This document shows positions 1 through 32,049 of a DNA stretch of 64,000 nt, one piece after another. A program made the translations under genes and the position numbers. This stretch comes from Candidatus Limivivens intestinipullorum (GTDB lineage Bacteria; Bacillota; Clostridia; Lachnospirales; Lachnospiraceae), in contig DVIQ01000110.1 in NCBI GenBank assembly GCA_018711185.1, forward strand, positions 1-64,000, in the 5' to 3' direction. A model generated the notes under the pieces. The model did no database searches. It had not been told where the DNA came from and saw only the letters and a program-made list of their open reading frames with translations. Position 1 is the first letter of the stretch. Every line of letters begins with the position of its first letter.

Positions 1-1473
1 ATATGTTTTGGTAGTCTTCTTCCAGTAAACGTAGTTGATACGGTTACTGCACTAAATAAATTATTTGGCACGGAACAGCATCAAGCCGCTGGCCCAGATG
101 TAATTGATCCGATAATTATTCAAGAAGGAAAAGTTTTAACAAAATATTTGAATGAAATAATTTCACTATATAAGGATTGCAACTTTAGACCAGCCATTAT
201 TATTATTTTAAAAGATAATGACTTTGATCGAGCTAAAAGCCTATTAGCGAATTGTCCAGATGGAATACAAATCAAATTTATTAAAAATAGTGGTGAAACG
301 CAATTTTATAAGGTAGTAAATACTGGCGCAGATAATATTGAAGGATTTATTTCGGCTTTTTCTCATCAGTGTTTTAGTACATGTTCAAAGACGAAGAGAG
401 ATGTTTTGTTGAATGAAGAGTGGGCCAATAATTCTGTTATAAGGAAATATGGTCCACAAATATTAAAAATAAGAACTCATTTACTTTTTGATGAGAAAAA
501 TGAAGTGCATAATTACATAAATGATTTGTTAAATCAAGTAACTGATACAACCAATTATACTTCTTATGAAAAAACAGTTCTTGAAAGCTTTAAATGCATT
601 TTGCTTCTGTTTAAAGTTTTTTGCAATGATCGTGCAGGAAATGACTTAAAAGCAGCATATAGTCTTGCAGTCGATCTAAATAACGATATATTAAAGGCAC
701 ATACTTTTCGATTTGCTTATTTTTGGGATGCTTGTTCATTAACGCAACAGCTAGATATGTTAAATGAGGCTCATACAATCTTTCTAAACAATGATATAGC
801 TGACCATGCAATATATTGCAAGAATAATGCTAACGTAACACAATTTGATACAGGACGGGTTTATGTAAGAGATTTTGATAATTTATTGGAAGAAGCTATT
901 TCAAATGTTCCCGGGTTGGTTGGTATGTCACATATTTTCAATAATACAGGAGTAGCCTATTTAGTTACAGGACAACCTGAAGAAGCAATGGAATATTTCT
1001 CAAAAGGCGTAGATTATGCTCATGGACAGGAGAGAACTGTTCAAAGATTAGCACTACATATTAATAAATTTCTAGCTGATTTTTATTGTGGAGAGATTAT
1101 AAAAGAACAACACTTAAGGAAAGTTTTAAATGAAATATTTGATGGGATGGTGAGAAACAATTTTCTACCATTTATCTCGTCAAGATATGTTCTTAATATT
1201 TTGTCTATATCATTACAGCAAAATTTAGATTTAGGAATGGACTTGCTGTCCTCTTTCCCAATAAGAGATTTATTAAATCAAGGAATAACTTCGAATCCTA
1301 TAGGTGGCGGACAGATTTTGCTCCAGACAAAATATCTGGAGCAAAAATATAAAAATCTGGTTTTGTTGGATAATCCGCCTGCTTATAATACAGTGGAAGC
1401 AATAACAGGAGTGCGAAAAGACTTTATTGTAAAATATGGGATTAATCCGTTTTATTTTTGTACATGGCTATAA
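1..1473 (+). CDS. TPR-like protein, 5' end cut by window
   Basis: The reading frame is open from base 1, so the gene begins outside the window; the first in-window start-like codon (TTG at 148) is unlikely to be the true start. The visible part is about 490 residues. The C-terminal half looks like alpha-helical tetratricopeptide-type repeats, for example the stretch around NNTGVAYLVTGQPEEAMEYF, which has the TPR spacing of small and large residues. I do not recognise the N-terminal part. Composition is very AT-rich compared with the genes after 4 kb, which suggests acquisition. Its last 22 bases overlap the 3' end of the convergent ATP-grasp gene. It could be the sensor half of a larger regulatory or NTPase protein, but no Walker motif is visible here. 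Function unknown. Confidence 0.65.
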   Translation: MCFGSLLPVNVVDTVTALNKLFGTEQHQAAGPDVIDPIIIQEGKVLTKYLNEIISLYKDCNFRPAIIIILKDNDFDRAKSLLANCPDGIQIKFIKNSGETQFYKVVNTGADNIEGFISAFSHQCFSTCSKTKRDVLLNEEWANNSVIRKYGPQILKIRTHLLFDEKNEVHNYINDLLNQVTDTTNYTSYEKTVLESFKCILLLFKVFCNDRAGNDLKAAYSLAVDLNNDILKAHTFRFAYFWDACSLTQQLDMLNEAHTIFLNNDIADHAIYCKNNANVTQFDTGRVYVRDFDNLLEEAISNVPGLVGMSHIFNNTGVAYLVTGQPEEAMEYFSKGVDYAHGQERTVQRLALHINKFLADFYCGEIIKEQHLRKVLNEIFDGMVRNNFLPFISSRYVLNILSISLQQNLDLGMDLLSSFPIRDLLNQGITSNPIGGGQILLQTKYLEQKYKNLVLLDNPPAYNTVEAITGVRKDFIVKYGINPFYFCTWL

Positions 1474-2465
1474 AAGGAGAGAATAGAACTCCATAGAACA
1501 AAAGCATGAACACTGTCCCCTCCGATTATGTTTCTAAACTTATTTATACTCTCATAGATTTGGTCTTGTTCATTTATTGCCGAATAAGAATGAAAAAATG
1601 CGTTTTCAGTCGATACTGTTGGCATTGGATTTATTTCTAAAAAGTAAGTATTTTCTTCTGTTAATTCTAAATCTAAGTCGTAGTGCTCTTTTTTCAGTCG
1701 TGCATCAATCCTGCAGAATGTATTGAGATTTATATCTGCTGCAAGTTTTCTGCAGGATTGAATTAGACCATCAGAAAGATTATGTGCTATATAACGCTGG
1801 AATTTATTATTTGGATTAGCATAATCTTCATCCAAGAACCAGTTAATATCTTTACTTTCTGGAATATAAATTATTGTTGGCATAAAATCCATTTCTTCTT
1901 TTACCGGATTGTATATCATAGGAATAGTTATGTCAAAACCTGGTATAAATTCCTGATAAATTCCTTCTCCATTTAGCTCACTCAGAAATTCTCTATGGAC
2001 ACCTATACTGCTACCTAAGTTTAGAGGTTTATATATTCCATTTTTATCTGAAGGGTTTAAATCAGCAGGGACAAGAAATCCTGCATTTTTGGCAAGAATA
2101 TTAGATGTTTTTTTATTTTCACCAGTGACTATGCCATATGAATCACATGGTATACATGGAATACCAATAAAGCTACATATTGAAGGAACAAGCGGCATGG
2201 AAGATAGTAGTGTACTTCCGCAATTTAAGTTTACTACAAAATCTATTTTAGGCAGAGTATTGGAAATTGCTTTTTCCACAAATGTCCTTACATCCAGGAT
2301 TAATGGTATACAGTGAAGTTGCTGCACGGCAAGTAGCCATGGGGCAATAATATCACTTTCCCATACATGATAGTGTTCAAAACCAATAGCCTCTTCACCT
2401 TCAAAAATATAGACAATTGCAATCGTTTTTCTTTTTGCTTTTTCATAAAAATTATCTGATTTCAT
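1452..2465 (-). CDS. ATP-grasp ligase, D-Ala-D-Ala ligase-like
   Basis: A 337-residue protein with the ATP-grasp hallmarks of the D-alanine-D-alanine ligase branch: an ATP-binding loop KPLNLGSSIGV at residues 146-156 (Ddl-type KPxxxGSSxGV), a RIDARL segment near 252 like the RxDF of Ddl, and the magnesium-binding ExN pair in FLEINPMPT (E277, N279). Known family chemistry is ATP-dependent joining of a carboxylate to an amine through an acyl phosphate. It is too divergent to call a cell-wall Ddl, and its AT-rich island setting argues for a specialised role such as dipeptide or peptide-tag synthesis. It is convergent with the TPR-like gene, overlapping it by 22 bases, so the two may not be co-transcribed. 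The gene starts with ATG at 2463-2465. Confidence 0.75.
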   Translation of the reverse strand: MKSDNFYEKAKRKTIAIVYIFEGEEAIGFEHYHVWESDIIAPWLLAVQQLHCIPLILDVRTFVEKAISNTLPKIDFVVNLNCGSTLLSSMPLVPSICSFIGIPCIPCDSYGIVTGENKKTSNILAKNAGFLVPADLNPSDKNGIYKPLNLGSSIGVHREFLSELNGEGIYQEFIPGFDITIPMIYNPVKEEMDFMPTIIYIPESKDINWFLDEDYANPNNKFQRYIAHNLSDGLIQSCRKLAADINLNTFCRIDARLKKEHYDLDLELTEENTYFLEINPMPTVSTENAFFHSYSAINEQDQIYESINKFRNIIGGDSVHAFVLWSSILSFYSHVQK

Positions 2466-2695
2466 AAATATGAATATTCCCCCATATCTTCGTTACAAAA
2501 TCTTTTTATAGATAATTAAGTATTATCCAGCCTATATATTACTTACAGTATAGCAGATTCCACCATATTTTTCCATTTTTAAAATTAAATTTTATTATTA
2601 ACCCAGATTGCAATATTCCATTTCATATTACGGCATACAAAAAAAACCGCCACTGCTGCCGGCCAATCCTCTGCGCCATTTCCATCTTTATATCA

Positions 2696-3613
2696 TTATG
2701 CTGCTATTTTAATCACCATCTTATTCCTTGGATGTTTCGTCCTTAAAATGTCTGCCTGCTTTCTCGCTGCCACATGAATATAGATCTGCGTTGTCCTGAT
2801 CGAGCTGTGTCCGAGTATACGCTGCAGACAGCTAATGTCTACGTCCTCCTCAATCAGATATGTAGCAAAAGAGTGCCGGAACATATGCGGGGTAATATTC
2901 CGTTCAATCCCTGCCTGCTTGGCATATTTCTTAATCATTCCTCGAATTGACTGCTCTGTGAACCGCTGATTCCTCTGGTTGATAAAGAAATAGCCGCAGG
3001 CTTTGATCTCCTTTTCATTGTCAGTATAGTATTTCTTGAGAAGATTAAGTACCTCCGGCTCTCCGATCTGTATGTAGCGTTCTTTTGCTCCTTTCCCCAT
3101 AATTCGTATCAAGCCTGAATTCAGATCAACACAATCTGCTTTCAGATTGGAAATCTCAGATACGCGCGCACCTGTTGCGAAGAGCATCTCGACAACCGCC
3201 TGATCCCTTCTCCTGCGTTTTACCTCTTTATCTGAAAGATCCGACGGATAAGCATACATAAAATTCAGAAGACGTTCAATTTCTTCCCTTGGTATAATTC
3301 TCGGAAGTATAATGTCCTCCTTGAATTTTACCTTTACTTTTCGGAAAGGATTCTCGCCAATTCTCTCCTCCTCTTCCAGAAAATTATAGTATGCGCGGAT
3401 TGAGGCAATTTTCCTTTTAATCGTTTTCTGTTTATACTTTTTATGCAGATCTGTTATAAATTGATCAATTTCCTCTTTTCCCGGATCGCAACAGGAAACA
3501 GCGTCAAAATATTGTTTTAAATCAATCCGGTATGCCTTCAGTGTTTTCTCATCCAGTTCCTTGCGGTATTTGCAATATTCAAGGTAATAGTCCACTTGTT
3601 CTTTTGCGGTCAT
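2696..3613 (-). CDS. Tyrosine recombinase / integrase (XerC/D-like)
   Basis: A 305-residue protein with an N-terminal SAM-like core-binding domain (about 1-90) and a catalytic domain carrying the full set of active-site residues: R150 in ATGARVSEI, K174 in MGKGAKER, H243 and R246 in HMFRHSFAT, H269 in LGHSS and the nucleophile Y278. It should therefore be an active strand-exchange enzyme. Length and architecture match Xer-like or small mobile-element integrases. It sits exactly where AT-rich DNA on the left gives way to ordinary chromosomal composition, so it may have mobilised the preceding genes. ATG follows a GGAGGAAAAAG ribosome-binding site. No attachment-site duplication could be identified, because the left end of the block is outside the window. 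Confidence 0.88.
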   Translation of the reverse strand: MTAKEQVDYYLEYCKYRKELDEKTLKAYRIDLKQYFDAVSCCDPGKEEIDQFITDLHKKYKQKTIKRKIASIRAYYNFLEEEERIGENPFRKVKVKFKEDIILPRIIPREEIERLLNFMYAYPSDLSDKEVKRRRRDQAVVEMLFATGARVSEISNLKADCVDLNSGLIRIMGKGAKERYIQIGEPEVLNLLKKYYTDNEKEIKACGYFFINQRNQRFTEQSIRGMIKKYAKQAGIERNITPHMFRHSFATYLIEEDVDISCLQRILGHSSIRTTQIYIHVAARKQADILRTKHPRNKMVIKIAA

Positions 3614-3711
3614 GCTTTTTCCTCCTCAATAAACAATCTAAGAACAGTTTAGCATATCCGCATCACATACCGATGGTATAGCATAATTTTAAAAGTTAGG
3701 CTGCTTACAAA

Positions 3712-4089
3712 TTATTTCCAGGAATCCCTCAATCGTTCATAGGATTCTTGAAACCCCTTTTTTCGTTCCTCTAGCTCCTGTTTCTTTACATCAGGCATCC
3801 TCTCGAAAAGCTGACAGTCCGTCAGGTCTTCCAGCCCCAGCTCCTCCTGGAAGGAATCCAGATAGTACCTTTCTACTTCCTCCAATAACCATTCAAATAG
3901 CTCCGGAGCGCTTTCAAAATATTCCTGAAGATCAAACCCTTCCCCTGGTTTAAACCACCGGAGTACAACAAATCCATATGGATATGCGTCCACTCCGCAC
4001 GTTTCTCCTTCTTCCTCAAAATACTCTCGAAAAATGTCCCAGACCTGCCTGCAATGCTCACATTCCATTTTTGATACATATTCTCTCAT
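3712..4089 (-). CDS. Small acidic hypothetical protein
   Basis: A 125-residue acidic protein, rich in Glu, Phe, Tyr and Trp, with an N-terminal CEHC pair (Cys-x-x-Cys, near residues 10-13) that might bind a metal or be redox-active. There is no signal peptide or membrane segment. It resembles small soluble, uncharacterised Clostridia proteins, but I do not recognise the family. It stands alone between the recombinase and the tsf terminator region, on the same strand as both, and AGGAG precedes its ATG. Function unknown. Confidence 0.6.
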   Translation of the reverse strand: MREYVSKMECEHCRQVWDIFREYFEEEGETCGVDAYPYGFVVLRWFKPGEGFDLQEYFESAPELFEWLLEEVERYYLDSFQEELGLEDLTDCQLFERMPDVKKQELEERKKGFQESYERLRDSWK

Positions 4090-4442
4090 ACTATTTTGCT
4101 CCTTTCACAAACCGGCTTTTGACGCAATTCACATCTGGACTGCGTAAAAACAGAATGTCTGATTTTGTCGAAAAAAAAGGGGAACAGCCCCAATTTAGCT
4201 GCTCCCGCTTTACCTTCAGTTTATAAAATTTTCATAGAAATTGCGTACTTTTCGCCGAAGGGAATTTTTTTTAATCTGACGCAATTCGGTACGTAATTTT
4301 GACGCAAAACCCTGTGCAAAAATACACGATTTTCTGTAAGTCTGACGCAGTTACGCAACTTCGGATTTTTCTCGGAAATTTTTGAAAAACCCAGCAAAAT
4401 CAAGGCTTTCGCGCCTTTCAAACCGGAACTTCGCCGATGTAC
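4090..4442. other. Gap with repeated GACGCA motifs
   Basis: No convincing gene lies here. The stretch contains several related sequences: TTTTGACGCAATTCACAT, TCTGACGCAATTCGGTACG, TTTTGACGCAAAACC and TCTGACGCAGTTACGCA, spaced 30-150 bases apart. A 66-codon frame on the minus strand reads through them with repeated NCVRL peptides, but it looks like a by-product of the repeats. The tsf terminator lies inside the gap. Confidence 0.6.
4171..4207 (-). terminator. Intrinsic terminator of rpsB-tsf
   Basis: On the minus strand GGGAGCAGC pairs with GCTGTTCCC (one G-U pair) around a 9-base loop and is followed by eight T. It lies about 235 bases after the tsf stop, with no other gene in between. Confidence 0.8.
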
Positions 4443-5375
4443 TTACATTCCCATCTGCTTCGCAACTTCCTCCGCGAAGTTCTCTTCCTTCTTCTCGATA
4501 CCTTCGCCGGTCTCGTAACGAACGAAGCCTTTGATCACAATCTTCGCATTCTGAGCCTTTGCTACGGAATCCACATACTGCTGTACGGTCTGCTTTCCGT
4601 CCTCTGCCTTTACATAAACCTGATCTACCAGGCAGATTTCCTTCAGTTCTTTATTGATACGGCCCATTACCATGCCATTAAGGATCTTCTCATTGGCATC
4701 CGGCTTTTCGTTTTTAGCCTGAACCATGAGGATCTCCTTCTCATGCTCGATGTAGTCCGCAGAAACCTCGCTGCGGTTCGTATAAAGAGGCTTCAGGGCA
4801 GCGGTCTGCATTGCTACGTTCTTTGCCATCTCTTTGATCTCGTCGTTTACAACATCGGTCTCAACATCGATGAGAACGCCGATCTTTCCACCCATATGCG
4901 TATAGGAAGCTACGAAACCGTTCTCTTCCTTTACCTGAGCGAAACGGCGGATGTTCATGTTCTCTCCGATGGTAGCGATCTGATGAGCCAGTTCCTCGCC
5001 TACGGTCTCTGTCGTATCGAACTTCCAGGGCTCCTGAAGGAAAGCTTCTACGTCCGCAGCGGAGGTTTCCATAGCCTGCTCAGCTACCTGGGCAACATAT
5101 CCCTGGAACTTATCGTTCTTTGCAACGAAGTCGGTCTCTGCGTTTACTTCTACGGCTACAGCTTTCTTTCCATCCTCGGAAACCTGAACCATAACAATAC
5201 CTTCGGCTGCGATTCTGCCGGCCTTCTTCTGAGCGGTGGCAAGTCCTTTTTCTCTCAGAAACTCAACTGCCTTGTCCATATCGCCGTCTGTTGCGGTCAG
5301 CGCCTTTTTGCAGTCCATCATACCTGCGCCGGTCATCTCTCTTAACTCTTTTACCATTGCTGCTGTGATAGCCAT
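4443..5375 (-). CDS. tsf: Elongation factor Ts
   Basis: EF-Ts is the guanine-nucleotide exchange factor that regenerates EF-Tu-GTP during translation. The 310-residue protein starts with the UBA-like N-terminal domain (VKELREMTGAGMMDCKKAL, residues about 9-27) and carries the conserved TDFVAKND motif near residue 80 that contacts EF-Tu. Length is normal for Bacillota. It follows rpsB by 72 bases, the standard rpsB-tsf order, and shares its promoter. ATG is preceded by GGAGGAATAAAAA. The terminator at 4171-4207 ends the operon. Confidence 0.97.
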   Translation of the reverse strand: MAITAAMVKELREMTGAGMMDCKKALTATDGDMDKAVEFLREKGLATAQKKAGRIAAEGIVMVQVSEDGKKAVAVEVNAETDFVAKNDKFQGYVAQVAEQAMETSAADVEAFLQEPWKFDTTETVGEELAHQIATIGENMNIRRFAQVKEENGFVASYTHMGGKIGVLIDVETDVVNDEIKEMAKNVAMQTAALKPLYTNRSEVSADYIEHEKEILMVQAKNEKPDANEKILNGMVMGRINKELKEICLVDQVYVKAEDGKQTVQQYVDSVAKAQNAKIVIKGFVRYETGEGIEKKEENFAEEVAKQMGM

Positions 5376-5447
5376 TTTTTATTCCTCCATCTTAAACATG
5401 CTTTGGCCGCAGGGCCATTTTGGTTCTGCGGCCGGGCATTTCCATTA

Positions 5448-6206
5448 TTATTCTTCGGCAGCGGTTTCCTCTGCTGCTTCTTCCGCGAACTCTTCCTCGG
5501 TAACAACCGGCACTTCGTTCTCAGCGCCCTGGTTTGCCTCGATAACCGCGTCTGCCATCTTTGAAACGATCAGCTTTACGGCACGGATTGCGTCATCGTT
5601 TCCGGGGATTACATAATCCAGCTCTTCCGGGTCACAGTTTGTATCCGCAATACCGATCAGCGGAATGCCCAGAGTATGCGCTTCCTGAACGCAGATTCTC
5701 TCCTTCTTCGGGTCAACAACAAAAATAGCGTCCGGCAGTCTCTTCATTTCCTTAATACCGCCCAGGTTCTTCTGAAGCTTTTCCATTTCCTTCTTCAGGG
5801 CGATTACTTCCTTCTTCGGAAGTACGTCAAAGGTGCCGTCCTGCTCCATGGTCTCGATCTCTTTCAGACGAGTGATACGGCTCTGGATAGTCTTAAAGTT
5901 GGTCAGCATACCGCCAAGCCATCTCTCATTTACATAGAACATTCCGCAGCGCTCAGCCTCCGTCTTCACGGCATCCTGGGCCTGCTTCTTTGTACCTACG
6001 AACAGAATGCTTCCGCCGTCAGCCACAATATCAAATACAGCCTTATACGCGGTATCTACCATGCCTACAGACTTCTGAAGGTCGATGATGTAAATGCCGT
6101 TTCTCTCGGTATAGATGTACGGAGCCATTTTCGGGTTCCATCTTCTGGTCTGATGGCCGAAATGTACGCCTGCTTCCAGTAACTGTTTCATTGAAATAAC
6201 GCTCAT
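5448..6206 (-). CDS. rpsB: 30S ribosomal protein S2
   Basis: Ribosomal protein S2 of the small subunit. I place the start at the ATG at 6204-6206 ([17 protein letters not shown]), behind an AAGGAG site six bases upstream; the frame is open further upstream, but that extension is not S2-like. The 252-residue protein has the family signatures [14 protein letters not shown] and the conserved [16 protein letters not shown], and ends in an acidic, Ala/Glu-rich tail. First gene of the rpsB-tsf operon, with a sigma-70-type promoter about 110 bases upstream. Confidence 0.96.
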
Positions 6207-6404: not shown

Positions 6405-7661
6405 TTATTCATGACGCAGCGCGTCGATGGGATTTAAGTTCGCCGCCTTTACGGAGGGCAGCAGTCCGAAGATAATTCCAATAAGCATGGAAAAAACTAC
6501 GGATATAATAATCGCAGTCACATTAATCCCCACCGGTGTCCCGGACATCCGGGATACCGTCTGAGCCAGGACAATGCCCGCTACAACGCCGATGATTCCT
6601 CCCATACTGGTCAGCACCACGGCCTCCGTCAAAAACTGCCCCAAAATGCTGCGCTTTTTGGCTCCGATTGCCTTTTTCAGGCCAATCTCACTGATACGCT
6701 CCGTTACGGACACCAGCATGATGTTCATAACACCGATTCCGCCTACCAGAAGAGAAATGCTGGCAATCCAGATCAACTGGTTGTTCATTGCCTCGCTTGA
6801 GCTTTGGAGCTGTTCCAGAGTTTCCAGAACGTCCCTTGCCCGGTAACGGACATCTGAGTCTCCGGTTATGTAGCCATTCAGAATATCCGCGCATTTGGAA
6901 CCGGCTGACGCCATATCGTCTGTGGTTTGTGCTTTGATTACAACATTCTGCGGCTCATCGTACATATAAGCGATGCACCAGGAAGCGGAGGGCATATATA
7001 CGATTCCGCTGTCCTCGTCGCCGATATAGGTATCGTAATCCTCTTCCGAGTTAATGACTGGCTCAAAACCCGCTTTCTGCTGGGCGACTCCTACCACCAC
7101 ATAAGGCTGCGAGTCGATTTCAATGGTTTTCCCCAGGGGATTTTCTTCCTGAAAAAGACTGCTGGCCGCAGTCTGATCCAGAATCACGACTTTCCGGTAC
7201 TGCTCATAGTCTTCGTCCAGGAATTCCCGGCCCGTTCGGACAATGTATCCGCAGGTGTTAAAATAATGCTGATCGATCCCATAGACCTGGGCGCCCTGAA
7301 GGGTACTGTTCTGATAATAGATTCCTTCCGCATAGGTTCGCACATTATAAAGGGATGCGTCTTCCACTCCATCCACATTCAGGAGCTCCTGCCGGATGCT
7401 CTCTGTAATTACCGGGATGCCATCCGGTACAGGGTTCCATTCCGATATCTCATAGTTTGTCTGTCCCTGGGACAGATTAATTTCCACCGCATTGTTTCCA
7501 GCGCCGATCAGGTTCTGACGGATCTGATCATTGGTCCCCTGAATCGTGGATACAATGGAAATAATCGACGCAATACCGATAATAATACCCAGCATGGTCA
7601 AAAAGGAACGCATTTTATGCGACCAGATTCCCTGGAAAGATAAACGGACATTTTCTAACAT
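6405..7661 (-). CDS. MacB/FtsX-family ABC transporter permease
   Basis: A 418-residue permease with the MacB architecture: one N-terminal membrane segment (about residues 18-42), a large extracytoplasmic core domain (about 45-285) and three C-terminal segments of the FtsX fold (about 290-418), including SVTERISEIGLKKAIGA, the cytoplasmic coupling helix typical of the family. Such permeases work with a separate LolD/MacB-type ATPase and a membrane fusion protein as a mechanotransmission exporter; the Bacillus YknXYZ system is the nearest Gram-positive precedent. It is the last gene of a four-gene operon and starts 14 bases after the large fusion-protein gene. Substrate unknown; peptides, bacteriocins or antibiotics are plausible from the family. 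Confidence 0.9.
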   Translation of the reverse strand: MLENVRLSFQGIWSHKMRSFLTMLGIIIGIASIISIVSTIQGTNDQIRQNLIGAGNNAVEINLSQGQTNYEISEWNPVPDGIPVITESIRQELLNVDGVEDASLYNVRTYAEGIYYQNSTLQGAQVYGIDQHYFNTCGYIVRTGREFLDEDYEQYRKVVILDQTAASSLFQEENPLGKTIEIDSQPYVVVGVAQQKAGFEPVINSEEDYDTYIGDEDSGIVYMPSASWCIAYMYDEPQNVVIKAQTTDDMASAGSKCADILNGYITGDSDVRYRARDVLETLEQLQSSSEAMNNQLIWIASISLLVGGIGVMNIMLVSVTERISEIGLKKAIGAKKRSILGQFLTEAVVLTSMGGIIGVVAGIVLAQTVSRMSGTPVGINVTAIIISVVFSMLIGIIFGLLPSVKAANLNPIDALRHE

Positions 7662-7675
7662 TGCTCTACCTCCCG

Positions 7676-10600
7676 TCAGCCTACGAAGATTTCCTCAACA
7701 CCCATGTCCATTCCGTCCAGGCTGTCTATATTCTCGTAGTCTTCCTCTAAATATTCTGTATCCGTCTCGTCCAAGCTCTCTGTATCGTCCCAGGTCTCCG
7801 TATCCGTCCAGCTCTCCGTATCGCTGCCGGTATCGTCTTCAGAGGCAATGGGCGCGCCCTCATAAACATTCTTTCCGTAAGGAAACGCAATACTGTCCGT
7901 AAGGCTCAATCCCTGAAGAACTTCCACATAGGTGGAGTAAACGGTTTCTCCGGTACGGACATACTGTTTCTCCAAGGTATTGTCGCTTCCAGCCTTATAG
8001 ACATAACTCTGGCCATTCTCTGACCGGATATAGCGCTTGTCTATATAAATGCTGTCGCTGGTATCTTCCGTGGCCCCGTCAATGTTCATTTCAGCCTGTT
8101 CGTATACCATGAGCCCATCCGCCTGATCAATATATGCCGTAAAGGAATAATAGGAGGCATTGGGATTTCCGCTGCCGTCATAATAGTAATCGGAACTGGT
8201 TGGGTAATCCGAGATCTCCGTAATCTCCGCTTCGAAATACGTGCCGGATTCCAGCGCGGTTCCCTGCAGGGTGGAACCGGTAGATACCTTGGATAAATCC
8301 ATCTCGCTGATGGTTCCCGTTACATAAAGCCCCGCGTCGCTGGTAACAGTAATAAACGCTTCTCCGTCCACTTCGCCAACCGCCGGATCTCCCACGGATT
8401 TCACGACGCCGTTTAAAGTGGCTTTGACCTGCGCCGCGTCCATATTGCGCTCCGCTTTTTCCAGATTCAGATTCGCAGTCCGGATATCAAGCTGGATCTC
8501 ACGGATGCTTTCTTCCTTTTCCGCAATGGCGTCTTTGAGTTCGGAGACAGTGTAGACATCCTCGCCCCAGTCATCTCCCCAATCGTCTCCCCAGTCTCCC
8601 CAATCGCCCCAGTCATCCCAGTTGGTTTCGGATTCGGATTCTGTCTCCGTGGTCGGCTGCTCGATTTCTTCGTCAACTCTGGTCAGACCCTCGCTGTTGA
8701 AAATCCAGCTTGTAGAAGGATCGTAGGATGTATCATTTTTTCTGGTACCGTTAATTTGAATTCCTTTCACGAATCCGCTGTTGATGTCATCGCCTTCCCG
8801 GATTTCCAGAATGACGTAACTGCCGGTTCCGTCCTTTCGGAAGCCGCCCCCGTCCTTCGTGGTGCCATCACTGGTAAAGCCCAGTACCGTATTCATGAAG
8901 GATGCGCGGATCAGTACTCCGTCCATACAAAAGAATACATAAGGATTTTCTTTGGTTCCATCGCCTTTATAAGGTCTTGAATTATACGTCAGCACACTGT
9001 GCGGACGTATCTTTCCGAGGGGCGAGGTTTCCGATTCCGTCTCGGAATCGGTCTCTGTCTCAGTTTCCGTCACCGGTTCCGTCTCTAGTCCGGTATCCGT
9101 TTCAGTGGCCGGTTCTGTCTCGGTTCCAGGATTTGTCTCTCCTGCCGGTGTTTCTGTCTCCGTTCCAGGATTTGTCTCTCCTGCCGGCGTTTCTGTCTCC
9201 GTTCCTGGATTGCTTTCGCTTACTGGTTCCGTCTCAGCTCCGGATGTACTTTCGCTTACCGGTTCCGTCTCGCTTCCGGATGTACTCTCGCTTATCGGCT
9301 CTGTCTCGCTGCCCGCATTGGTTTCGCTTGGCGCTTCCGTTCCGCTTTCCGTGCTTGTTTCGCTTGACACTTCCGTCCCGCTTTCTGTGCCCGGTTCGCT
9401 TGACGCTTCCGTTCCGCTTTCCGTGCCTGTTTCGCTTGACGCTTCCGTCCCGCTTTCCGTGCCCGGTTCGCTTGACGCTTCCGTCCCGCTTTCCGTGCCT
9501 GTTTCGCTTGGCACTTCCGTCCCGCTTTCTGTGCCCGGTTCGCTTGACGCTTCCGTTCCGCTTTCCGTGCCTGTTTCGCTTGGCACTTCCGTTCCGCTGC
9601 CTGTATCAGTTTCACTGATCGGATCCGTTTCACTGCCCGTATCAGACCCGCCGCTGCTCTCGCCTGTGCTATCTGAATCAGACCCGCTGTCTTGGGTTCC
9701 TTCTTCTACAAATTCCAGTGTTGTACTTGGATCCGCATAGAAGATCAGCTTCTGATCGGCAGGAAACGGCGTTTCGTTGTTCTCTGTCCCGTTGATCTGG
9801 ATTTTATGCTGTGTTCCGCTGTTCACATCGTCATTTACATGAATTTCAAGAATAATATAGCTTCCGCTGCCGTCTCCCCGAAATCCTCCATTCTCCTTGG
9901 TGCTTCCGTCGGGAGTAAATCCTTTAACTTTGTTCATAAAAGAAGGATTTATAATGGTTTCGTCTTTGCAAAGAAAAACATAGGGTTTTTCCCGCGTCCC
10001 CTCGCCCGTATATGGCTCGGACTTTTCGTTCAGCTCATCCAGCGCCACTACATTCTCATACCGAACGGTTTCGCTTTCTTTCGAGCTATTGCTATTTTTA
10101 TTTCCTCCAAGGTCGCTCGCGTCTACTTCCTCGATTTTCTCCGAGTTATCAGATGCCTGGCTGCCCTTTGCACTTTTCTTCGCCGCCTCACTCTCTGCCG
10201 CTGCCTTCGCCGCTGCTTCGCTCTCCGCTGCCGCTTTCGCCGCTGCCTCACTCTCCGCTGCTGCCTTCGCCGCCGCTTCGCTCTCCGCTGCCGCTTTCGC
10301 CGCTGCCTCACTCTCCGCTGCCGCTTTCGCCGCCGCTTCGCTCTCAGCTGCCGCTTTCGCCGCTGCCTCGCTCTCCGCTGCCGCTTTCGCCGCTGCCTCA
10401 CTCTCTGCCGCTGCCTTCGCCGCCGCCTCACTCTCCGCTGCCGCTTTCGCCGCTGCCTCACTCTCTGCCGCTGCCTTCGCCGCCGCCTCACTCTCCGCCG
10501 CCGCTTTCGCTGCCGCATCCTCTGTGGTACCCTCCGCGGCTGCCATCAGGGAAACCTCATTATCCTGGAGCGCAGCCGTCTCAGCCACGCCGGCTACGAT

Positions 10601-11035
10601 TTCCGCTCCGCTGCTTCCGTCATCCACCGGATCCGCAATGGGCGTGATGTTATTAAGCCTCTCCAGCTCTTTTTGCTCGGACAAAAGCTGCAGCTCAAGG
10701 GTTTTGCAGTTAAGCTGGGCTGATTCCAGTTCAAGCTCAAGCATTGTCGTATCATAGGACATCAGGACATCACCTACGGAAACTCTGTCGCCCTCCTGGA
10801 CATTTATATTCGCAATTGTCTGGTCGCTGGAAAGGTAAACCTCCTGGGTGGCGTTTGCCGTAATCGTTCCGTAGCTGGGCATGGAATAATCCCAGCTTCC
10901 CGTATTCAGATAGGCAACGGGAGTCACCGTAACCGGCGACCCGTTTCCGGCAACGAGGCGATAAGCGCCGTAAACTCCGCCGCCTACCAGGGCCGTCACC
11001 AATAAACCGATCAAAACTACCGTACGTTTTTTCAC
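7676..11035 (-). CDS. Giant repeat-bearing HlyD/MacA-type membrane fusion protein
   Basis: A 1119-residue protein that begins and ends like a MacA/YknX adaptor: membrane anchor (about residues 5-28), lipoyl-type half (about 60-95, INVQEGDRVSVGDVLMSYD), first helix (about 98-128), then much later the second helix (about 832-865), the returning lipoyl half (ATLNGVVKSVGD) and beta-barrel domains. Between the helices lies roughly 700 residues of insert: about 11 copies of the ten-residue unit AAAKAAAESE (about 171-283), a domain of some 105 residues (about 342-445), a Thr/Glu/Ser/Gly-rich repeat region (about 459-660), a second copy of the domain (about 675-785), and a Trp/Asp/Gly-rich segment. 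The C-terminus is acidic. The gene overlaps the ATPase stop by four bases. Usual adaptors have 350-450 residues. Confidence 0.85.
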   Translation of the reverse strand: MKKRTVVLIGLLVTALVGGGVYGAYRLVAGNGSPVTVTPVAYLNTGSWDYSMPSYGTITANATQEVYLSSDQTIANINVQEGDRVSVGDVLMSYDTTMLELELESAQLNCKTLELQLLSEQKELERLNNITPIADPVDDGSSGAEIVAGVAETAALQDNEVSLMAAAEGTTEDAAAKAAAESEAAAKAAAESEAAAKAAAESEAAAKAAAESEAAAKAAAESEAAAKAAAESEAAAKAAAESEAAAKAAAESEAAAKAAAESEAAAKAAAESEAAAKAAAESEAAKKSAKGSQASDNSEKIEEVDASDLGGNKNSNSSKESETVRYENVVALDELNEKSEPYTGEGTREKPYVFLCKDETIINPSFMNKVKGFTPDGSTKENGGFRGDGSGSYIILEIHVNDDVNSGTQHKIQINGTENNETPFPADQKLIFYADPSTTLEFVEEGTQDSGSDSDSTGESSGGSDTGSETDPISETDTGSGTEVPSETGTESGTEASSEPGTESGTEVPSETGTESGTEASSEPGTESGTEASSETGTESGTEASSEPGTESGTEVSSETSTESGTEAPSETNAGSETEPISESTSGSETEPVSESTSGAETEPVSESNPGTETETPAGETNPGTETETPAGETNPGTETEPATETDTGLETEPVTETETETDSETESETSPLGKIRPHSVLTYNSRPYKGDGTKENPYVFFCMDGVLIRASFMNTVLGFTSDGTTKDGGGFRKDGTGSYVILEIREGDDINSGFVKGIQINGTRKNDTSYDPSTSWIFNSEGLTRVDEEIEQPTTETESESETNWDDWGDWGDWGDDWGDDWGEDVYTVSELKDAIAEKEESIREIQLDIRTANLNLEKAERNMDAAQVKATLNGVVKSVGDPAVGEVDGEAFITVTSDAGLYVTGTISEMDLSKVSTGSTLQGTALESGTYFEAEITEISDYPTSSDYYYDGSGNPNASYYSFTAYIDQADGLMVYEQAEMNIDGATEDTSDSIYIDKRYIRSENGQSYVYKAGSDNTLEKQYVRTGETVYSTYVEVLQGLSLTDSIAFPYGKNVYEGAPIASEDDTGSDTESWTDTETWDDTESLDETDTEYLEEDYENIDSLDGMDMGVEEIFVG
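9060..9660 (-). repeat. Degenerate Thr/Glu/Ser/Gly coding repeats
   Basis: Imperfect repeats of about 36 bases, encoding variants of GTESGTEASSEP and GTESGTEVPSET, then related ETNPGTETETPAG and STSGSETEPVSE units. The region is low-complexity, acidic and probably disordered, like cell-wall-spanning stalks of surface proteins. It separates the two copies of the unknown domain in the giant adaptor. Confidence 0.85.
10186..10523 (-). repeat. Tandem 30-bp coding repeat, about 11 copies
   Basis: Near-identical 30-base units encode AAAKAAAESE within the giant adaptor. Copies differ mainly at synonymous positions, for example GCC/GCT and GAG/GAA. The peptide has the composition of a long alpha-helix. 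Copy number is easily changed by replication slippage or recombination without frameshift, because the unit is a multiple of three. Confidence 0.9.
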
Positions 11036-25462: not shown

Positions 25463-25470
25463 CCTTTTAT

Positions 25471-25553
25471 GCGGAAGGCGGGACTTGAACCCGCACGATA
25501 TTGCTACCACAGGCACCTGAAGCCTGCGCGTCTGCCAATTCCGCCACTTCCGC
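25471..25553 (-). tRNA. tRNA-Leu (anticodon CAG), copy 2
   Basis: An 83-base cloverleaf with acceptor stem GCGGAAG/CTTCCGC, D-arm GAATTGGCAGAC, anticodon stem CAGGC/GCCTG around loop TTCAGGT (anticodon CAG), a long variable arm as expected for leucine, and GGTTCAAGTCC T-arm. No encoded CCA. Identical to the copy at 25610-25692. Confidence 0.95.
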
Positions 25554-25609
25554 GTTTGCTGTACTGAAACAGCTATGTAATTTTTGCACCGCACTGCTTT
25601 TCTTTGAGT

Positions 25610-25692
25610 GCGGAAGGCGGGACTTGAACCCGCACGATATTGCTACCACAGGCACCTGAAGCCTGCGCGTCTGCCAATTCCGCCACTTCCGC
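25610..25692 (-). tRNA. tRNA-Leu (anticodon CAG), copy 1
   Basis: Identical in sequence to 25471-25553, separated from it by 56 bases. Class II tRNA with long variable arm; reads CUG codons. Confidence 0.95.
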
Positions 25693-25747
25693 ATTCTCTG
25701 TACTGCAGTCAGTACCTTGCTGTTCCGCAGGTCTTTTTGAAAGACCT

Positions 25748-25830
25748 GCGGGAGATGGGACTTGAACCCACACGATTTTGCAATCACTAGATCCTTAGTC
25801 TAGCCTGTCTGCCAATTCCAGCACTCCCGC
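25748..25830 (-). tRNA. tRNA-Leu (anticodon AAG)
   Basis: An 83-base class II cloverleaf: acceptor GCGGGAG/CTCCCGC, D-arm GAATTGGCAGAC, anticodon stem CTAGA/TCTAG with loop CTAAGGA, giving AAG at positions 34-36. An A34 leucine tRNA is unusual in bacteria and would normally need deamination to inosine to read CUU, CUC and CUA. Aligns position for position with the CAG tRNAs. First gene of the three-tRNA transcript. Confidence 0.9.
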
Positions 25831-25850
25831 ATTGCTTAACAACAAAATGA

Positions 25851-31683: not shown

Positions 31684-32049
31684 TCATCCCCCCCCATAAA
31701 GGTGCCTGACATAGTCCACCATCTCTTCTCTGGTTATGCCAAGCTGCTTTCCCTCTTCCACAAGGTTCTTCAGCATTTTGTAGCAGGCATCCCTGCGCCG
31801 CTCTTCCATATCCGAAAGCTGGCAGACAAAGTTCCCCCTGCCTTTCACTGGATAGATCAGGCCCTCCTGTTCCAGACAGGCATAAGCCTTTTGAATCGTG
31901 TTCGGATTAATGGAAAGCTCAACGGCCAGGGAACGGACGGAGGGAAGCTGCGTCTGCGGCTTTACCGCCCCGCTTAAAATCATAGCTTCCACGCGATCCG
32001 CGATCTGTTCATATATGGGCTTCCGGTTTTGATAATCAATGGTTATCAT
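31684..32049 (-). CDS. GntR-family regulator, YtrA subfamily
   Basis: A 121-residue transcription factor: winged-helix DNA-binding domain (about 10-77, QLPSVRSLAVELSINPNTIQKAY as the recognition helix region) followed by only a short two-helix tail for dimerisation, the length and layout of the YtrA subfamily. Such regulators repress their own ABC-transporter operon. A perfect operator of the known YtrA form lies 42-70 bases upstream, next to a promoter, which supports autoregulation. First gene of the three-gene operon. Confidence 0.93.
   Translation of the reverse strand: MITIDYQNRKPIYEQIADRVEAMILSGAVKPQTQLPSVRSLAVELSINPNTIQKAYACLEQEGLIYPVKGRGNFVCQLSDMEERRRDACYKMLKNLVEEGKQLGITREEMVDYVRHLYGGG

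Follow-up and report, generated by a model that had tools for sequence, protein, structure and literature searches.

The known cases of phase variation by DNA inversion mostly concern surface structures, flagella and restriction-modification specificity. The Mu G segment, the P1 C segment and the E. coli P segment are switched by serine invertases and alternate related tail-fibre genes. In these segments, sets of facing genes are inverted so that one set or the other comes to a fixed promoter. The P1 and P segments are named among the references of PMC12529663. The Clostridioides difficile RecV switches combine a tyrosine recombinase with inverted repeats in Clostridia, and PMC5903667 describes such clostridial switches as inverting mainly short intergenic or 5′-untranslated segments. 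Here we describe a cassette in a 64,000-nucleotide stretch of Candidatus Limivivens intestinipullorum (contig DVIQ01000110.1 of assembly GCA_018711185.1), and the whole of this stretch is called the window. The cassette holds two convergent genes, one for a TPR-like protein and one for a Ddl-like ATP-grasp enzyme, beside the gene of a Xer-like tyrosine recombinase (int). By sequence, the sites are inverted, their spacers are specific to each locus, and one locus occurs in both orientations, which join within the site. The cassette is very probably invertible, and we infer that the adjoining recombinase acts as its invertase.

The locus of Candidatus Choladousia intestinigallinarum (L032) has the same gene order as the window, rpsB-tsf-orf125-int. 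From orf125 through the end of the site, the two loci were identical in 1578 of 1579 bases (377/378, 98/98, 918/918, 165/165 and 20/20 by segment). The identity ended inside the site, where the window continues into the ATP-grasp gene and L032 into the TPR gene. The L032 stretch matched the window contig only as far as the site, and the 196 available bases past the site were equal to the TPR side of the Blautia copy. The remainder of the L032 cassette was not found in the L032 genome assembly. The rpsB-side stretch was about 83% identical between the window and L032, whereas the orf125-int-cassette block was 99.9–100% identical between species, so the block appears to have been transferred between species recently and to exist in both orientations. 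The two orientations were seen in this comparison between species, not within one population. The earlier placement of the pair on mobile DNA, made by a sequence-only reading of the window, is supported by the near-identity of the block across species, but not in its layout of an integrase with its cargo.

An exact inverted repeat of 17 to 64 bases flanked the pair in 10/10 relatives holding both ends. The site has a nearly palindromic core, GATAAT-n5-RTTATC; the bases in its middle vary between loci and agree within a locus. Strand exchange by tyrosine recombinases requires matching middle bases of the paired sites, and the agreement within loci fits this requirement. In Blautia sp. An81, a 19-base inverted repeat just outside both genes was the longest in the region. 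Genomes G136, G184 and G181 had an inverted repeat at the same place with other letters, and G181 also had an unrelated 42-base repeat longer than the site repeat. The window contains one copy of the site (Table 1), and the inverted partner lies left of base 1, as seen in the Blautia sp. An81 copy. The left flank of the window was not found in its own assembly, and the Blautia left flank had no match in genome G000. Two metagenome contigs (L024 and L027) start at a repeat arm. When an empty site was sought in the same genus, the only match was an 81% fragment at the end of a contig (G204). A second exact match to GATAAT-n5-RTTATC was present in the window at 32031–32047, in a gene read as a GntR-type regulator. 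It was treated as a probable chance match, with no recombinase of this family nearby.

Searched with the profile of the recombinase at E ≤ 1e-60, the 299 genomes of the bacterial family gave 45 matches, spread over 42 genomes. The recombinase family was also present in five other families of the class. The protein scored below the NCBIfam equivalog cut-offs for the housekeeping XerD (244.5 vs. 329.6) and XerC (237.7 vs. 335.15). All profile matches in the bacterial family other than those of the TPR-like/ATP-grasp type were taken as further loci (40), and a cassette was defined as a motif-bearing inverted repeat with one arm less than 900 bases from the recombinase. Such a pair lay beside int in 18/40 loci, with a spacing of 2.3–6.7 kb. 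In a control, repeats of at least 17 bases at 2–7 kb spacing were found near int in 19/40 loci (the same 18 and one without the motif), and the same test on random intervals gave 0/4846. Including eight cassettes of the TPR-like/ATP-grasp type, the arms of the cassettes were convergent in 26/26. The repeat arms were exact in 26/26 with 24 distinct spacers, one of the 26 being a locus whose core was missed by the pattern. A site with at most one mismatch was located within 700 bases of int in 29/40 loci. Of the 22 loci lacking a full cassette, nine had a contig end no more than about 105 bases from a site. Outside the bacterial family, the test took in every one of the 11 loci in other families of the class: four had a cassette (convergent in 4/4), three more had a contig end at the site (one starts exactly there), and four had neither. 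Convergent cassettes thus came to 30/30 in total. Two or more site-like sequences in tandem were noticed in the arms of L052 (10591–10716), L067 (110–188) and L043 (10592–10681), so crossover there may have a choice of registers.

The TPR-like gene was found in 5/299 genomes of the bacterial family, with a convergent ATP-grasp gene adjoining it in 5/5 and a related recombinase adjoining the pair in 5/5. Weak ATP-grasp matches without the TPR-like gene were found in three more of these genomes. A scan with the TPR alignment over one genome per species gave 11 loci, four of which are the same as G028, G136, G181 and G184, and the pairing was convergent in 10/10 loci holding both genes. The pairing expected from the sequence alone therefore recurs, and the two genes do co-occur elsewhere. 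The Xer-like recombinase was adjacent in 11/12 loci including the window; at the exception, L024, the contig ends at the arm. Its strand and the gene beside it varied between loci; where the side could be told, this was the ATP-grasp side in 7/11 loci and the TPR side in 4/11. The Blautia sp. An81 copy matched the window in 3871 of 3875 bases (99.9%). The window open reading frame (ORF) at its left end is truncated at the 5′-end because base 1 of the window is base 1 of the contig, and the Blautia copy supplies the missing part, giving a 561-aa TPR-like protein with a TTG start. In L029, a second convergent cassette (2430–5763, ATP-grasp/TPR protein) lies beside the one of the window type. The neighbours of the pair in relatives included a cyclic-oligonucleotide-based antiphage signalling system (CBASS) operon in G136, a HamB/PDC-M23-like helicase in L026, a type IIG enzyme in L028 and AbiEi/AbiEii in L029. 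Plasmid and phage protein searches gave no match for the ATP-grasp protein, the plasmid protein search gave none for the TPR protein (the phage search covered the ATP-grasp protein only), and a search of IMG/VR with the TPR alignment gave none.

The TPR label rested on a single repeat below the cut-off (E = 0.005) and is weak by sequence. The predicted fold (predicted local distance difference test 79.9) has a C-terminal superhelix, which agrees with the label, and an N-terminal alpha/beta part of about 180–200 aa, which is not TPR. The superhelix (residues 182–538) aligned with the Rap/NprR peptide receptors at Z of about 18–20, with MalT at 19.0 and with the unrelated APPBP2 at 20.5, a tie with Rap/NprR. 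From this model, it is plausible that the superhelix senses a ligand. In profile comparisons, the TPR family had TPR-only similarity to the second cassette of L029 (E = 4e-4, probability 36%) and no similarity to the big arms of L060 and L038. The Ddl-like label was similarly weak by sequence, the NCBIfam score for D-alanine–D-alanine ligase being 22.2 against a cut-off of 245.65, and it was upheld by the predicted fold, which is that of Ddl/VanG/PylC (TM score about 0.5–0.65 at 11–15% identity). A search of solved chains with the ATP-grasp profile gave none at E ≤ 0.1. Residues K118, D254, E277 and N279, whose roles we take to be those in Ddl, were invariant in 10/10 relatives. Since the fold and these residues are kept, the protein is probably active, as a ligase of amino acids or peptides.

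The cargo of the wider class of cassettes varied. In 15/18 cassettes, enzymes were in one arm and NTPase, TIR, SIR2 or pentapeptide-repeat proteins in the other. Counted among these 15 are L065, with its TIR protein taken as the enzyme, L066, in which the TIR protein matches GNAT weakly as well, and L036, where a hexapeptide transferase shares the NTPase arm. One arm had no Pfam match in L045, L060 and L064. The immune-type arms of the class comprised STAND/AAA, NB-ARC/nSTAND, Mrr-AAA, TIR, SIR2-STALD and pentapeptide-repeat proteins. In L065 (G149:C1, 7257–9611), a ThsA-like SIR2-STALD protein (E = 1e-60) faces a TIR protein with ThsB similarity (E = 2e-12), and both genes lie inside an inverted-repeat pair beside the recombinase. 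In the four cassettes outside the bacterial family, 10/12 ORFs of at least 100 aa were scanned, and the arms scanned in L104 had no match. The same enzyme-partner pairs recurred with recombinases 47–70% identical; the two arms therefore belong together and are functionally coupled.

Table 1. Annotated features of the window and cargo of related cassettes.
Feature	Locus	Position	Strand	Remark
TPR-like protein gene	window	1..1473	+	ORF call; 5′-end open at contig end; distal cassette arm in window orientation
Ddl-like ATP-grasp enzyme, 337 aa	window	1452..2465	-	ORF call; recombinase-adjoining arm in window orientation
int-proximal recombination site	window	2511..2530	.	17-base core 2511–2527; inversion breakpoint vs. 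L032 inside site
Candidate promoter TGGAAA - 17 - TATACT, TG ahead of -10	window	2547..2575	-	reads into cassette
Xer-like tyrosine recombinase (int), 305 aa, proposed invertase	window	2696..3613	-	ORF call, profile matches
orf125, 125-aa ORF	window	3712..4089	-	part of same transferred block
ATP-grasp arms	L038, L043, L056, L060
ATP-grasp-radical SAM fusions	L051, L067
Radical SAM arms	L056, L066, L067
Serine hydroxymethyltransferase (SHMT)-like pyridoxal phosphate (PLP) arms	L045, L053, L055, L073
Alcohol dehydrogenase arms	L053, L055
Carbamoyltransferase arms	L052, L054
Glycosyltransferase arms	L036, L050, L062
TIR / radical SAM	L100			outside family
ATP-grasp + methyltransferase / AAA-TPR	L107			outside family
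SHMT + nicotianamine-synthase-like protein / AAA	L108			outside family

We propose that the recombinase would act on the sites inverted around the two genes and flip the segment of about 2.8 kb between them. A promoter fixed outside the cassette would read inward across one site, and flipping would select which of the convergent arms is transcribed. The window would then be in the state in which the ATP-grasp arm is transcribed, and Candidatus Choladousia intestinigallinarum in that of the TPR arm. Promoters were scored with an ad hoc matrix in the 100 bases outside each arm, in the inward direction. A significant inward promoter was present on one side in 10/26 cassettes and on both sides in 0/26, and the better inward side scored above outward controls (Wilcoxon p = 0.002). 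The candidate promoter of the window would drive the ATP-grasp gene. Alternate expression of the arms by inversion is the simplest reading of this anatomy and is likely; taken jointly with invertibility, it is still fairly likely.

Several observations weigh against this proposal. The orientation relative to int was the same in 6/6 pairs of related cassettes, an argument against flipping that is fast and unbiased; loci of the TPR-like/ATP-grasp type, unlike these pairs, show both orientations. The genera of G255 and G104 had a single genome each and gave no comparison of orientation. No site was found near int in 11/40 recombinase loci. The recombinase of L029 is frameshifted, and that of L031 is only 28% identical. 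L031 has a second inverted-repeat segment (702–4527) which is not purely convergent, with PLP aminotransferase-like, pentapeptide-repeat and decarboxylase-like genes as read from the translations. No significant promoter was found on either side in 16/26 cassettes with the ad hoc scoring, and a generic scan listed the window candidate at a level not above chance (2 found, 2.7 expected from shuffles). None of the PADLOC-DB families matched the TPR, ATP-grasp, int or orf125 protein of the window at E ≤ 1, and PADLOC gave no match for most big arms of the class.

The two arms may form one module of the conflict or immunity type, with an enzyme for a peptide or small molecule and an intracellular sensor or effector, and a clonal population would then hold cells in both states. 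We give such a role an even chance because of the immune-type arms and the neighbours of the pair in relatives. Alternatively, the enzyme may tailor a surface polymer or metabolite with the partner as sensor or regulator, in ordinary phase variation. This is possible but somewhat improbable: the class includes glycosyltransferase, epimerase, IspD and carbamoyltransferase arms, L020 and L026 lie beside polysaccharide-type genes by reading of translations, and the TPR part aligns with Rap/NprR and MalT, but these Z scores tie with APPBP2, and the TIR, SIR2-STALD, NB-ARC/nSTAND and Mrr-AAA arms and the CBASS, HamB/PDC-M23, type IIG and AbiE neighbours speak against it. It is also conceivable, and rather unlikely, that both arms are needed together and inversion sets their ratio, the weak arm being expressed by read-through or internal promoters. 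Thoeris ThsA and ThsB work in the same cell. The ThsA-like and ThsB-like arms of L065 and the coupling of recurrent enzyme-partner pairs favour such joint action, whereas the arms of 30/30 cassettes converge between the inverted sites, often with an overlap, and 0/26 cassettes are promoted significantly from both sides, which looks like a one-or-other design. Within the proposed switch of alternate expression, we speculate, with little confidence, on a sender/receiver switch in bacterial immunity: one phase would make an enzyme that produces a peptide or small-molecule signal (ATP-grasp, radical SAM, PLP or ThsB-like TIR) and the other the matching receptor or effector (TPR/STAND or ThsA-like SIR2), and different cells of a clonal population would then hold different halves of a single circuit. 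The first interpretation, in which int is an integrase, the pair is the cargo of an integrative element and the orientations come from separate insertions, is very improbable despite the near-identical block in different species and the AT-rich composition, because the repeats are inverted and not direct, with int outside them, only the inside of the site differs in direction between the window and L032 while the outside including int is the same, and random intervals had no such repeat.

No direct repeat bounding a segment with int was seen, the left flank lying beyond the contig end; the direct repeat looked for around the block is replaced by the inverted one. The element is bounded, but its boundary is an inverted repeat that leaves the recombinase outside, and it is better read as an invertible cassette than as integrated cargo. 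That reading was right about an intact tyrosine recombinase and about two convergent genes with a 22-base overlap (1452–1473). The GC content rose from about 0.30–0.34 at 1–2750 to 0.36–0.46 across the recombinase and orf125 genes, and to about 0.50 from 4.5 kb onward. The block is AT-rich as described, but instead of one sharp change at 3.6 kb the composition has two steps, one at about 2.5 kb, near the cassette edge, and one at about 4.3 kb. A family search with orf125 gave no match, and an Rfam scan of 1–4500 gave no match reaching the gathering score. Elsewhere in the window, a 1119-aa secretion-accessory-like protein (7676–11035, minus strand) has long repeats of the AAAKAAAESEA and Gly-Thr-Glu-Ser types, its neighbour (6405–7661) looks like an ABC permease, and three tRNA-Leu genes (two with anticodon CAG and one with AAG) stand in tandem at 25470–25831.

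In a literature search judged by titles and the opening lines of abstracts, with preprints and most subscription journals outside its scope, no paper was recognised as describing cassettes of this kind. One recombinase family appears to toggle an enzyme against an immune-type protein of many kinds. If this is true, an inventory of defence systems from a single genome captures one phase alone, a system may be present but silent in an isolate, and contig breaks at the sites conceal it. With the site motif and the profile of the recombinase, such modules can be sought directly. The recurrent enzyme-partner pairs suggest partners that can be tested for those STAND, TIR and pentapeptide-repeat proteins that lack known triggers. 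The ATP-grasp protein of the window has its fold in common with D-Ala-D-Ala ligases, VanG and PylC at 11–15% identity. The likeness to Thoeris (SIR2-STALD and a TIR protein with ThsB similarity) concerns L065 only, not the window pair, and L065 differs from Thoeris in its convergent genes inside an inverted-repeat pair beside a recombinase. The window cassette differs from the Mu G, P1 C and P segments in its tyrosine recombinase and its two unrelated proteins, and its class differs from the RecV switches in that whole convergent genes of 2–7 kb are inverted.

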